This document shows positions 7,319-45,872 of a stretch of DNA of 45,872 nt, in pieces (positions within the stretch are counted from its first letter, which is position 1; the number at the start of each line of letters is the position of its first letter). The stretch is taken from positions 6,165 to 52,036 of the forward strand of contig JASGCL010000006.1 of NCBI GenBank assembly GCA_030054115.1, in the 5' to 3' direction. The notes beneath the pieces are model-generated. The model had not been told where the DNA came from and searched no databases. It saw only the letters and a list, made by a program, of their open reading frames with translations. This stretch comes from Hydrotalea sp. GTDB lineage: Bacteria; Pseudomonadota; Alphaproteobacteria; JASGCL01. Made by a program: the position numbers and the translations under genes.

Positions 7319-8029
7319 TTATTTTATTTTTTGATTATCGCTCGGCCTTGGCAATGCCCGCGCATCGGGGTTGCGTGCATAAATCGGCATGATATGGTCG
7401 GTGATAAAATCCTGTCCATTATATTGTTGCAGGGCGGGCAATAATCGCGCAAAATCCACGTCGCCCGTAACCACCTCATCATCGGGGTGGGTTTTCAACA
7501 ATTCATCGCGCCGCGCCATCATCGGCTGTGGCATGATGGGCGCAATTTTTTTATCAGCAACATGCAATATAAAACGTTGATAAAAAATCTCATCGCGGCG
7601 GCTTTCGGCCAGCACCAAAAATTCTTTATCATCGCGATATTTTTTATCAGCAATATGCGTCAACAACATCGCCGGCAAACTGCCGATACCATGAATTTTT
7701 TTATCATCACCCGCCACGGAAAAATCCAAACCAAACCCCAAGCCAATCGCCGCCGCCACCGCCACGCGCAGGCCGGTGAATGACCCCGGCCCCAAGGTTA
7801 TAAAAATACCGCGCAGTGCGTTAAGTGGCCGTTGCGCATCATGCAATATTTTTTCAATCGCCGGCAATAATTCCTCGGCCTGGCCATGCACCATTTTTTG
7901 CCGTTCGGTCGCGATTGCGCCATCGTGTTGTGCCAAGGCCACCAACAATTGGTTGCCCGCCGTGTCAAAACACAATAATGGCTGTGGCAATGGCCATGAA
8001 AATGCCCGTGAAGAAAAATCGCCCGCCAT
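7319..8029 (-). CDS. tsaB: tRNA threonylcarbamoyladenosine synthesis protein TsaB
   Basis: Partner of TsaD and TsaE in making N6-threonylcarbamoyladenosine at position 37 of ANN-decoding tRNAs. The 236-residue protein has the ASKHA-fold start LLCFDTAGNQLLVAL (about residues 17-31) and the conserved core GIFITLGPGSFTGLRVAVAA (about 73-92). I choose the ATG at 8029, whose A overlaps the last base of the pdxJ stop codon; the longer frame would run into pdxJ. It is followed at once by rimI. Coupled translation with pdxJ and rimI is likely. Confidence 0.93.
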   Translation of the reverse strand: MAGDFSSRAFSWPLPQPLLCFDTAGNQLLVALAQHDGAIATERQKMVHGQAEELLPAIEKILHDAQRPLNALRGIFITLGPGSFTGLRVAVAAAIGLGFGLDFSVAGDDKKIHGIGSLPAMLLTHIADKKYRDDKEFLVLAESRRDEIFYQRFILHVADKKIAPIMPQPMMARRDELLKTHPDDEVVTGDVDFARLLPALQQYNGQDFITDHIMPIYARNPDARALPRPSDNQKIK

Positions 8030-31972: not shown

Positions 31973-32362
31973 ATGTTTACTGAATTGGTTGCCATCCTCG
32001 CCCTGTTGCAATTTTTTGGCTTTGGCCTGATGGTTGGTCGCACGCGCCGCAAAACCGGCGTTAAGGCACCGGCCACCACCGGCAACCCGATGTTTGAACG
32101 TGCCTTTCGCGTCCAGATGAATACCATGGAACTGCTGGTTATGTTCCTGCCGGCCTTGTTCTTGGCGGTGCATTATTGGTCAGATAGTTTGGTTGCGGTG
32201 CTGGGGGCGGTTTATATTCTGGGGCGTCATATTTATTGGCGCGATTACATCACCAACCCGGCGACGCGGCACCTTGGGTTTGCTTTGTCGGCATTGCCCA
32301 TTCTTATCTTGCTGGCCCTGGGCTTGATTGGCGCGGTTATGTCCTTGGTCGGCGCAATTTAA
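31973..32362 (+). CDS. MAPEG family membrane protein
   Basis: A 129-residue integral membrane protein of the MAPEG family (membrane-associated proteins in eicosanoid and glutathione metabolism). It has four hydrophobic segments. The conserved MAPEG loop appears as FERAFRVQMNTMELLVMFLP, with the Arg...Asn-x-x-Glu pattern. Length is typical. Bacterial members may have glutathione transferase-like activity, but this is not provable here. The upstream gap (31757-31972) holds a GACGC/GCGTC inverted repeat and no gene. The stop codon lies within the left copy of a 12-bp direct repeat that bounds an intergenic element. Confidence 0.85.
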   Translation: MFTELVAILALLQFFGFGLMVGRTRRKTGVKAPATTGNPMFERAFRVQMNTMELLVMFLPALFLAVHYWSDSLVAVLGAVYILGRHIYWRDYITNPATRHLGFALSALPILILLALGLIGAVMSLVGAI

Positions 32363-32371
32363 CTGATAAAA

Positions 32372-32388
32372 AAATCACTCCGTGATTT
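32372..32388 (+). terminator. Hairpin after the MAPEG gene
   Basis: AAATCAC-TCC-GTGATTT has a perfect 7-bp stem with a three-base loop. It is followed by GTTCATGAAGCAAGC and a six-T run at 32404-32409. It has the same design as the hairpins at 33157, 35236 and 35334. Confidence 0.5.
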
Positions 32389-32425
32389 GTTCATGAAGCA
32401 AGCTTTTTTATATTATTCGTGCGAA

Positions 32426-32453
32426 CCGCACTCACTTAACGAAGCGATAGGGC
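32426..32453 (+). repeat. Degenerate GCCCT...AGGGC unit in the loop of an inverted repeat
   Basis: ACTCACTTAACGAAGCGATAG then GGC aligns to the family at 35370-35395 but has lost the left GCCCT arm. It sits between the two arms of the TTCGTGCGAA inverted repeat. In the copy near 45731 the same arms are only five bases apart, which suggests that the unit inserted into the loop. Confidence 0.6.
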
Positions 32454-32478
32454 AAATTTATTGCATTCGCACGAATTC

Positions 32479-32506
32479 AAGCACCAGACTTCACTTGCTT
32501 CTATAT
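32479..32506 (+). repeat. 28-bp intergenic repeat unit (plus orientation)
   Basis: This 28-bp sequence, beginning AAGCACCAGACTTCAC, is the exact reverse complement of 33089-33116. Nineteen bases of it also occur, in the reverse orientation, at 45701-45719. It forms an imperfect hairpin through AAGCA and TGCTT. Confidence 0.9.
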
Positions 32507-32648
32507 AATTTAACTGATGAAAAATTCCGCCATGTCTTACTTGCTTTAAACGCGGCGACATTTTTCATTTGCTTTTTGTTGGCGTTTTTGCTTAAAGGGT
32601 TTTAATAAGAAATAACAAAAGAATTTTTAAAAAATTAAGGTTACCATC

Positions 32649-33035
32649 ATGCGTTCCGGCATTCACCCCGAATATCACGAAATCGTTATCGAAACCACCA
32701 ATGGTGGGGCATATACCACCCGTTCGACATGGGGTAAGGCCGGCGAAAAAATGAAATTGGAAATCGACCCCGACACCCACCCCGCCTGGACCGGCGGTAT
32801 TCAAAAAGTGTTAGAGGGCGGCCAGGTCGCCCGTTTTGGTCGCCGTTTCCAAGGCAAAACCTTCACGGCAAAGGCATCTGCGCCAGCCGCCGCCAAACCA
32901 GCGGTTGCCAAGGCAAAACCCGCGGCACCGGCGGTGAAAAAGCCCGAAGTTAAAAAAGCCGCGGAAAAACCCGCCGCTGATACCGCCGCCGCGCCAGCGG
33001 CTGATGCCGCACCCAACGCACCCAAGGCCGAATAA
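32649..33035 (+). CDS. rpmE: 50S ribosomal protein L31 with long Ala/Pro/Lys tail
   Basis: Large-subunit protein at the subunit interface (central protuberance bridge). Residues 1-74 are L31 of the zinc-free alphaproteobacterial type: MRSGIHPEYHEIVIETTNGG, then TTRSTWGKAGE and DPDTHPAWTGG, with no CxxC pairs. After about residue 74 there is a tail of some 54 residues made of Ala, Pro, Lys, Val and Glu (for example KAKPAAPAVKKPEVKKAAEK), so the protein has 128 residues against the usual 75 or so. The tail resembles histone H1-like or Alba-type disordered basic tails. A TAAGG sequence lies eight bases before the ATG. Inverted copies of an intergenic repeat flank the gene. Confidence 0.92.
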   Translation: MRSGIHPEYHEIVIETTNGGAYTTRSTWGKAGEKMKLEIDPDTHPAWTGGIQKVLEGGQVARFGRRFQGKTFTAKASAPAAAKPAVAKAKPAAPAVKKPEVKKAAEKPAADTAAAPAADAAPNAPKAE

Positions 33036-33039
33036 AATT

Positions 33040-33069
33040 GCCACGCTCATGTAGCGTCAGCGATAGGGC
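33040..33069 (+). repeat. Degenerate GCCCT...AGGGC-type unit after rpmE
   Basis: GCCACGCTCATGTAGCGTCA followed by GCGATAGGGC keeps the right half of the family unit (AGCGATAGGGCGA) with a diverged left arm. It starts five bases after the L31 stop codon. Confidence 0.6.
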
Positions 33070-33088
33070 GATTCAAATTGAGCGTAAC

Positions 33089-33116
33089 ATATAGAAGCAA
33101 GTGAAGTCTGGTGCTT
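33089..33116 (-). repeat. 28-bp intergenic repeat unit (minus orientation)
   Basis: Exact reverse complement of 32479-32506. It is followed by CACACAAATAATATAAAG, the degraded counterpart of the CTTTTTTATATTATTCGTGC segment in the other copy, so the whole element is inverted relative to the one before rpmE. Confidence 0.9.
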
Positions 33117-33149
33117 CTATTCACACAAATAATATAAAGCAAACATGTT

Positions 33150-33203
33150 CATGAACAAATCGCGGCGCGATTTTTTCATCAAATAAATTGTTGCCCTCAA
33201 GTA
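33150..33203 (+). repeat. 54-bp exact repeat, copy 1 (between rpmE and cobU)
   Basis: These 54 bases are identical to 35327-35380. They contain the terminator-like hairpin (33157-33176) and the first 11 bases of a GCCCT-type unit. Both copies lie between convergent genes and end near the stop codon of the minus-strand gene. Confidence 0.92.
33157..33176 (+). terminator. Intrinsic terminator after rpmE
   Basis: AAATCGC-GGC-GCGATTT with TTT following: a 7-bp stem, three-base loop and a total run of six T residues. It can work in both directions, between the convergent rpmE and cobU-like genes. Confidence 0.7.
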
Positions 33204-33219
33204 GCGTTAGCGATAGGGC
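33193..33219 (+). repeat. GCCCT...AGGGC intergenic repeat unit next to the cobU-like stop
   Basis: GCCCTCAAGTAGCGTTAGCG then ATAGGGC. It is one base longer than the units at 110-205 and is followed by GAATTTATTGCC, a flank shared with the copies near 32453 and 35395. It ends 14 bases before the cobU-like stop. Confidence 0.85.
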
Positions 33220-33233
33220 GAATTTATTGCCCG

Positions 33234-35258: not shown

Positions 35259-35326
35259 CATAAAATTTTTTGACATCTTGTGTGCCTTATGCGCATTCTT
35301 CAGCGAAGATAATAAAGCAATATAGC

Positions 35327-35380
35327 CATGAACAAATCGCGGCGCGATTTTTTCATCAAATAAATTGTTGCCCTCAAGTA
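35327..35380 (+). repeat. 54-bp exact repeat, copy 2 (between the MurU-like gene and pgk)
   Basis: Identical over 54 bases to 33150-33203, and again placed between convergent genes next to the minus-strand stop. The segment before it (ATAATAAAGCAATATAGC) is a shortened form of the segment before copy 1. Confidence 0.92.
35334..35353 (+). terminator. Second hairpin terminator before pgk stop
   Basis: The same AAATCGC-GGC-GCGATTT stem-loop plus T run as at 33157-33176. With the hairpin at 35236 it gives two successive terminators between the convergent MurU-like and pgk genes. Confidence 0.6.
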
Positions 35381-35395
35381 ACGAAGTGGTAGGGC
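35370..35395 (+). repeat. GCCCT...AGGGC intergenic repeat unit next to pgk stop
   Basis: GCCCTCAAGTAACGAAGTGG followed by TAGGGC, 26 bp. It ends four bases before the pgk stop codon and is followed by GGATTTATTGCC, the flank shared with the other copies. Confidence 0.88.
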
Positions 35396-35399
35396 GGAT

Positions 35400-36590
35400 T
35401 TATTGCCCTTGCAACGCGGCGACGCCGGGCAATTCCTTGCCCTCCAACCATTCCAAAAACGCGCCACCGGCGGTCGATAGATAGGTCAAATCGTCGGCCA
35501 CGCCGGCGTGGTTCATGGCCGACGCGGTGTCGCCGCCGCCCGCCACCGACAGCAATTTTTTTTCGCGGGTCAATGCCGCCGCCGCCCGCGCCACCAACAC
35601 CGTGCCACGGTCGAACGGCGCGGTTTCAAACGCGCCCAACGGCCCGTTCCATAATAATGTTTTCACCTGTTTTAACGTCGCGGTAATGTCGGCGATGGTT
35701 TTATCCCCCACGTCCAAAATCATTTCGTCATCGGCGATTGCGTTGGCGATTAGGAGTTCTTTTGTCGCCACCCTTGCGCCGGTCGCCAATTTGTCGGCCA
35801 CCACCACGTCCAGCGGTAAATGGATTTTACAATTTTTGTCGGCGGCCATGGCCATGATTTTTTGTGCCACGGGTATTTGGTCATCCTCGACCAGCGATTT
35901 GCCGACCGCCAAACCCCGCGCCCGTAAAAATGTATTGGCCATTGCCCCGCCGATAACCAAATGGTCCAGCCGTGGTAATAAAAATTCCAATATGGCAATC
36001 TTGCTGGAAATTTTTGCCCCGCCGACAATCGCCATCACTGGTTTTTGCGGCGTCACCAAAACCTTTTCCAATGCTGAAACCTCGGCCAACAGCGACGGGC
36101 CGGCGAAGGACGGCAAAAATTTTGTAATGCTATAAACAGACGCATGTTTGCGGTGGCTGACGGAAAAGGCATCGTTGATATAAACATCGCCCAACCCAGC
36201 CAGCGACGTTGCGAATCCTTCGTCATTGCCTTCCTCGCCCGCATGAAAACGCAAATTTTCGGCAAGGAAAATTTTTGCCGATGATTTTTTTATCATCGCG
36301 ATAATATCATCGCCGATGCAATCGGGCAGGAACATAACCTCCTGCGCCAATAATGCCGCCATTTTGGCGGCGATGGGTTTCAGGCTATCGCTTTCGTTTT
36401 TACCCTTTGGCCGGCCAAGATGCGACAGCACGATTATTTTGGCCGCGCCACCGGCTTGCCAATTTTTGATGGAGGGCAAGAATCGCACCAACCGCGTGTC
36501 GTCGGTTATAACGCCATTTTTTATCGGCAGGTTAAGGTCGGCCCGCACCAGCAGGTTTTTTCCGTGGTAATTTTTTGCAAGCTGTAACAT
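35400..36590 (-). CDS. pgk: Phosphoglycerate kinase
   Basis: Interconverts 1,3-bisphosphoglycerate and 3-phosphoglycerate with ATP formation in glycolysis. The 396-residue protein has LLVRADLNLPIKNGVITDDT (residues 14-33; most family members read RVDLNVP), VLSHLGRPKGKNES, AIVGGAKISSKIAILE, the hinge stretch LLWNGPLGAFE and the nucleotide loop SVAGGGDTASAMNHAG. Length is normal and all catalytic blocks are present. No gap or fba gene is adjacent. It is transcribed divergently from the antiporter gene. Confidence 0.97.
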   Translation of the reverse strand: MLQLAKNYHGKNLLVRADLNLPIKNGVITDDTRLVRFLPSIKNWQAGGAAKIIVLSHLGRPKGKNESDSLKPIAAKMAALLAQEVMFLPDCIGDDIIAMIKKSSAKIFLAENLRFHAGEEGNDEGFATSLAGLGDVYINDAFSVSHRKHASVYSITKFLPSFAGPSLLAEVSALEKVLVTPQKPVMAIVGGAKISSKIAILEFLLPRLDHLVIGGAMANTFLRARGLAVGKSLVEDDQIPVAQKIMAMAADKNCKIHLPLDVVVADKLATGARVATKELLIANAIADDEMILDVGDKTIADITATLKQVKTLLWNGPLGAFETAPFDRGTVLVARAAAALTREKKLLSVAGGGDTASAMNHAGVADDLTYLSTAGGAFLEWLEGKELPGVAALQGQ

Positions 36591-45616: not shown

Positions 45617-45700
45617 AATAAGCGGTTATGCACCGAACCCAATAAAAAATCAATATCGTTGCCCGCCAAGCCAAAACCTAAATCAGCGGTTTTTGCAATA

Positions 45701-45719
45701 ATATAGAAGCAAGTGAAGT
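45701..45719 (-). repeat. Partial 28-bp intergenic repeat unit upstream of ffh
   Basis: ATATAGAAGCAAGTGAAGT matches the first 19 bases of the copy at 33089-33116. The remaining bases have diverged. Confidence 0.85.
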
Positions 45720-45730
45720 TTTATGGCCTG

Positions 45731-45758
45731 CATTCGTGCGAATTTACTTCGCACAAAT
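45731..45758. repeat. TTCGTGCGAA inverted repeat, compact form
   Basis: ATTCGTGCGAA and TTCGCACAAAT are separated by five bases, giving a nearly perfect 11-bp hairpin. The same arms at 32415-32425 and 32466-32476 are 40 bases apart because a GCCCT-type unit lies between them. AACATAAAAAAGC follows, the counterpart of GCTTTTTTATATTA at 32402. Confidence 0.8.
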
Positions 45759-45786
45759 AACATAAAAAAGCTGTGGGAGGCAAACA

Positions 45787-45872
45787 CCGCGTAAGCGGTT
45801 TTTGCAAATCATATTGCCACCGCGTAAGCGGTTTTTGCAAATCATATTGCCACCGCGTAAGCGGTTTTTGCA
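45787..45872 (+). repeat. 33-bp tandem hairpin array running off the window
   Basis: Copies start at 45787, 45820 and 45853, exactly 33 bp apart. Each has CCGC-GTAA-GCGG, a perfect 4-bp stem with a four-base loop (one more A:T pair outside), then TTTTTGCAAATCATATTGCCA. The copies are identical as far as seen, and the third is cut by the window end. A fragment, AGCGGTTTTTGCAA, also occurs at 45685-45698. The array lies upstream of ffh. Confidence 0.92.

Follow-up and report, generated by a model that had tools for sequence, protein, structure and literature searches.

The exact 12-bp direct repeat found behind a MAPEG-family gene most probably represents the starts of two neighbouring copies of a hairpin repeat, and not the footprint of a single insertion. 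As part of the same explanation, held with the same good confidence, our best reading of the repeated unit is a lineage-specific, modular palindromic repeat serving as a 3′-end or terminator element, like pneumococcal SPRITE or BOX, or REP. The window, that is, the whole 45,872-nt stretch of DNA analysed, lies on contig C6 of a 1.68 Mb genome in 91 contigs (95.5% complete).

The MAPEG-family gene (31973-32362, + strand; PF01124, E 6.5e-20) ends with a TAA stop codon at 32360-32362, inside the left edge of the unit and within the left copy of the 12-mer AATTTAACTGAT (32356-32367). The right copy is located at 32507-32518, leaving 139 bp between the two (32368-32506); repeat, spacing and stop codon are all as the original prediction described them. 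Its statement that the intervening modules recur also held, with inverted copies in the window at 33089-33190 and 35327-35367 and others across the genome, where a search with the segment gave 62 partial matches. The downstream gene encodes ribosomal protein L31 (PF01197 match), and the unit sits between co-oriented genes and not convergent ones. The L31 gene itself (32649-33035) carries an Ala/Lys/Pro-rich C-terminal extension of ~60 residues past the L31 domain. Elsewhere in the window AATTTAACTGAT was not found, even with one mismatch allowed; its expectation is 0.31, and two or more occurrences were obtained in 5 of 100 shuffles. Exact 12-mer pairs 20-300 bp apart form 26 merged families in the window, versus ~2 pairs in a first-order Markov control, and a short-range direct repeat of this length is not rare by itself in such a repeat-rich window. 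The original prediction missed that the match does not stop with the 12-mer: at both copies it goes on (AATTTAACTGATRAAAAA) and enters the left arm of a hairpin. The last two bases of the left 12-mer supply the outermost pairs of the hairpin A stem.

Searching the genome with this segment and with three other copies brought out a family of modular units. The segment itself comprises a complete A-D-C unit, whose hairpin D encloses a B palindrome, and, behind it in head-to-tail order, the start of a second A-type hairpin. In the direction of the MAPEG gene, all on the + strand, the unit begins with the head, (G)CAATTTAnnTGAT (32352-32367), which holds the left 12-mer. Hairpin A (32366-32394) resembles a terminator, its minus strand carrying a T7 run, and is supported by compensatory pairs in 16 copies; it scores 62.2 bits with R1, a covariance model of A that was built from these 16 copies, this one included. 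An AT-rich spacer leads to hairpin D (32415-32476), assigned by its sequence and by the covariation of D in other units, whose arms, ATTCGTGCGAA (32415-32425) and TTCGCACGAAT (32466-32476), are interrupted by the nested palindrome. The latter (32428-32462) is REP-like, a relative of GCCCTCAAGTAGCGAAGCGATAGGGC, and was recognized through its repeat family in the window and matches to the B core pattern. Module C, CTTCACTTGCTTCTATA (32489-32505), shares its sequence with other C ends and forms the tail of the unit, which is 103-159 bp long in the ten units measured. The second head (32503-32518) comes immediately after C and holds the right 12-mer, as a C end joins a head at six further loci. 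It leads into the second A-type hairpin (32516-32569), with arms GATGAAAAAT..CGCC and GGCG..ATTTTTCATT and an enlarged loop. On the minus strand, a second complete A-D-C unit, inverted, lies right after the L31 gene (33090-33193; R1 61.3 bits) and has no head past its C end, and a third A module, without module C, is found at 35325-35370 (R1 61.5 bits).

Across the genome, R1 found 21 strong copies of hairpin A (E up to 5e-6), a number that is a lower bound because several copies lie at contig ends or beside N runs. Most of these ~21 copies have a left edge of the kind (G)CAATTTAnnTGATGAAAAAAT, and AATTTAACTGAT is that edge. The alignment of the 16 uninterrupted A hairpins starts at the head, with comparable heads in most of them; a clear head is absent from some A copies, such as C31:235. 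A profile built from 14 other heads, a subset of those known from which the heads of the MAPEG locus were excluded, ranked the left 12-mer edge third and the right one fifth on the two strands of the window, ranks 1, 2 and 4 going to further A or A-like hairpins. Taken by itself, the outer part of the head is AT-rich and weak, and the left copy then ranks 85th in the window. GAAAAAT follows the right 12-mer, matching the head consensus, and GATGAAAAAT has a single occurrence in the window, at 32516. Since AATTTAACTGAT is the unit's own head, the direct repeat is a tandem element edge and not duplicated target DNA.

The original prediction had instead read the repeat as a target-site duplication, left when insertion of a small non-autonomous element at the MAPEG stop codon doubled 12 bp of arbitrary target. 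The description as a small, interspersed, modular element stands, and an exact 12-bp repeat flanking a segment that belongs to a dispersed family speaks for this reading; insertion with target-site duplication does not stand, the repeated sequence being the family's conserved left edge at unrelated loci, with its last bases within a hairpin stem on both sides. Unit edges were compared at 10 of the 18 known C ends (17 listed and one at C70), the others having no intact A head in the unit, lying at contig ends or being dubious (L004 at 1807, with three mismatches). Copies without flanking duplications, which the original prediction had named as evidence against itself, make up half of the ten: at C6:39354, C14:23507, C31:235, C2:46453 and C19:13719 no head follows the tail. 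The flanks share 10 nt within B modules at C19:13719 and at most 7 nt at the other four. The head and the right flank share 12-22 nt of head in four units (the MAPEG locus, C2:5814, C62:859 and C49:344), and at C1:152235 a diverged head comes after the tail, with 7 nt shared. A target duplication would be expected to vary by locus and to flank most copies; the head repeat does neither, which disfavours this reading, and where an edge is repeated it is another A-type head. No Y1 (PF01797) or DDE_Tnp_1 (PF01609) transposase was found in the genome, at its 95.5% completeness, the PF01797 search being positive in 5 of 14 control genomes. No long terminal inverted repeats were seen, just GCAAT...ATTGC at some units. 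The genus is represented by this one genome. In a search for orthologous loci, the best MAPEG reached 47% identity in 96 genomes of the class, this one included, and none of 80 L31 loci had a MAPEG match within the retrieved flanks. Duplication of an arbitrary target is considered highly improbable.

The module C end runs straight into a head at 6 of the 17 listed ends (the MAPEG locus, L002, L019, L020, L155 and L159) and at the one at C70. These seven junctions, together with two heads at C62 that match across 22 bp although different hairpins follow them, would suit units that insert site-specifically at existing A heads, so that a head is restored at either end. The two near-identical units in head-to-tail order at C49 are, however, explained by simple tandem duplication or recombination, and searches with PF01797 and PF01609 gave no recombinase candidate, so that insertion targeted to heads is regarded as unlikely. 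If the repeat marks the starts of two neighbouring copies, as we favour, such tandem copies would probably have arisen by local duplication or by recombination between heads.

The hairpins of the family are supported by covariation. Hairpin A is 95.3% paired over the 16 copies, with 22 double-change cells versus 6.5 in shuffled alignments, and slid controls reach at most 45.3%. The inner-stem pairing is partly circular, because an inner-stem filter was used to select these copies. Of 13 candidates taken without it, 12 show pairing at each of the three inner test positions and one at two, and the unfiltered outer pair (columns 19/43) is C-G in seven copies, G-C in five and unpaired in four. Hairpin D, whose copies were selected by their distance from C alone and with no pairing filter, is 81.7% paired in 11 units; in 8 of 11 pairs both partners have changed, and slid controls reach at most 42.3%. 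The compensatory changes in A and D therefore indicate that the folds are retained while the sequence changes.

Placement at gene 3′ ends, and a hairpin accompanied by A and T runs, could also be expected of ordinary bidirectional terminators in AT-rich convergent intergenic regions, alike by common design and never dispersed. The identity of the spacer, of module C and of the head is, however, well above what termination needs, and R1 gave no match, under strict filters, in the other 288 of the 289 genomes of the class that were searched, this genome alone being positive; we therefore consider independent terminators a very unlikely account of the family. At gathering thresholds, Rfam has no match in the window. 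The 17-base C motif is present in 24 viral contigs, and these matches are taken as chance because an A module is missing from all 24 loci.

The copy of hairpin A on the MAPEG side folds no better than shuffled sequences (z -0.8 on the + strand and -0.9 on the - strand). The hairpin at 32516-32569 reaches -15.5 kcal/mol (z -3.3) on the + strand and -20.1 kcal/mol (z -4.7) on the - strand; its larger loop and poor R1 score (11.3 bits, E = 5) identify it as an A-type module that has diverged and is not intact. The same bases contain an open frame with a hydrophobic end (NLTDEKFRHVLLALNAATFFICFLLAFLLKGF, 32507-32605), which would make the right 12-mer part of a small coding region severed from its start by the insertion. 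This small ORF was rejected, as it has no Pfam match and no match in 97 foreign loci (80 with L31 and 17 with MAPEG) and its bases fold as a strong palindrome; a severed coding region is accordingly extremely unlikely.

The position of the units relative to genes was counted for 22 of the 33 R1 rows, namely all 21 with E <=5e-6 and C1:131497 (E 0.013, a B-interrupted A); the 11 rows omitted are mostly the same hairpins on the opposite strand. With ORFs called crudely, by length, 10 of the 22 copies have the stop codon of a co-oriented ORF of at least 100 aa ending in the interval from 5 nt before to 14 nt past the first base of the head; positions drawn at random from these loci give 1.4%, and the tail side gives 0 of 22. 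At the MAPEG locus, the stop ends 10 nt past that base. Ten of the 22 copies lie between convergent ORFs. The stop codon falls within the head in five copies (MAPEG, C14:22195, C37:12291, C24:22394 and C1:80228), which confirms for MAPEG, and extends to four other genes, the claim of an edge that carries the stop codon. Two modules are associated with RNA genes in the same orientation: one starts 14 nt past a 5S rRNA gene and another overlaps the 3′ end of a tRNA-Ser gene (L215 1501-1678 and L214 1501-1631). The 3′-end position that characterizes intrinsic terminators is thus found at 10 of 22 copies, next to a co-oriented stop, as well as at the 5S rRNA and tRNA-Ser genes.

Regarding function, hairpin A is flanked by the T tracts TTTTTT and TTTGTT, one on each strand, and with these A and T runs it may constitute a 3′-end element acting as a bidirectional intrinsic terminator. 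Its minus-strand form, a hairpin followed by T6-7, would be the better terminator, and we propose that it would for this reason stop transcripts arriving from the opposite side, halting them at the end of the upstream gene. In Escherichia coli, termination is described as dropping from ~90% to under 10% when the terminator lies 5 bp past a stop codon (PMC4824070); as hairpin A follows the stop so closely, ribosomes translating the co-oriented gene should repress its termination. A hairpin beside the stop codon might act on that gene through 3′-end protection or ribosome interference, and REP palindromes <=15 nt from a stop codon are reported to stall ribosomes in a paper that cites earlier work for it (PMC12306157). 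For several genes, the head itself would supply the stop codon. The terminator scan left these hairpins, the MAPEG-side hairpin A included, unflagged. The proposal that the element supplied MAPEG with a terminator is therefore borne out in part: position and covariation argue for it, whereas the unflagged scan and the weak fold of this copy argue against it. The hairpin at 32516-32569 is a better candidate terminator for MAPEG than hairpin A. An extended version, in which the A-D-C unit would be a mobile 3′-end cassette that targets gene ends or existing hairpins and heads, supplies both stop codon and terminator, and itself offers further hairpin elements (B) landing sites in the A and D loops, with no transposase of the family that drives REP, seems to us rather improbable.

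Among known repeats, SPRITE and BOX are the closest by description, followed by REP/BIME and then by small MITE-like repeats. Pneumococcal SPRITE, set beside the units by description, is a dispersed repeat with a hairpin and U-rich tract resembling a terminator, enriched near the 3′ termini of coding sequences and possibly co-opted for termination (PMC3049150). It belongs to another phylum, and hairpin D, the fixed tail C, the tandem units and the nested B are features of the units described here. BOX (boxA-boxB-boxC) is likewise described as made of separate modules, one of which may be absent, present or repeated; it repeats the internal boxB (PMC3049150), whereas here whole units or heads are repeated, and the middle hairpin either shows compensatory changes or hosts B. 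REP/BIME share the short palindromes near stop codons and the composite mosaics (PMC2817692; PMC12306157), ~11% of E. coli REPs being given as <=15 nt from a stop (PMC12306157), and they are multicopy palindromes outside genes, as are A, with 21 strong matches, and B, with 94 pattern matches. They differ in the Y1-type (RAYT) transposase, which was not found in this genome, and in that A has terminator-like A/T runs, the nested B being more REP-like than A. RUP, Correia/NEMIS, RPE and YPAL are described as non-coding repeats of <200 bp with secondary structure and multi-frame stops (PMC2229807), in which they resemble the units; in contrast to MITE-type elements, no terminal inverted repeats are defined for the units and no target-site duplication was seen, and in the 4 of 10 that share >=12 nt at their edges the shared sequence is the head and not a variable target repeat. 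The unit is filed as a lineage-specific member of the modular palindromic intergenic repeats. Direct repeats on either side of a segment of bacterial intergenic DNA can thus be repeated element edges and not evidence of insertion, and the one-sided, lineage-specific abutment of head and stop codon could help in studying how repeats resembling terminators become established at the ends of genes.

The B palindrome is a separate repeat, commoner than A, with 94 matches to its core pattern in the genome and none to a reversed-pattern control. Its core, CTCAAGYARCGNAGYGRTAG, often occurs in tandem at 35-36 bp and is found in the window at 1-214, 33048-33232 and 35370-35404, as well as in the genome at large; the centre reads either GCGNAGC or ACGNAGT, which looks like a paired R/Y change flanking a short loop. 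By eye, B lies inside the loops or arms of A and D at 32428-32462 in the window and near 1530 in L027, 1501 in L016, 1624 in L002 and 1475 in L138, as if the hairpins were landing sites for it.

A second type of unit was also observed, in which A is followed by a tail around GCGTTTAATAATGCGC that replaces D and C (L024 1509-1570, L012, L013 and L181). At 45685-45872 of the window, another hairpin (CACCGCGTAAGCGG, with the head-like CAATATGATTTGC) forms a 33-bp tandem array beside the end of a C-D unit, and the genome sequence enters an N run just past it. Finally, three short direct repeats, TTTTTTTATCA / TTTTTTATCAGCAA, which resemble the run in the A head, are present in apparent coding sequence at 7544-7706.
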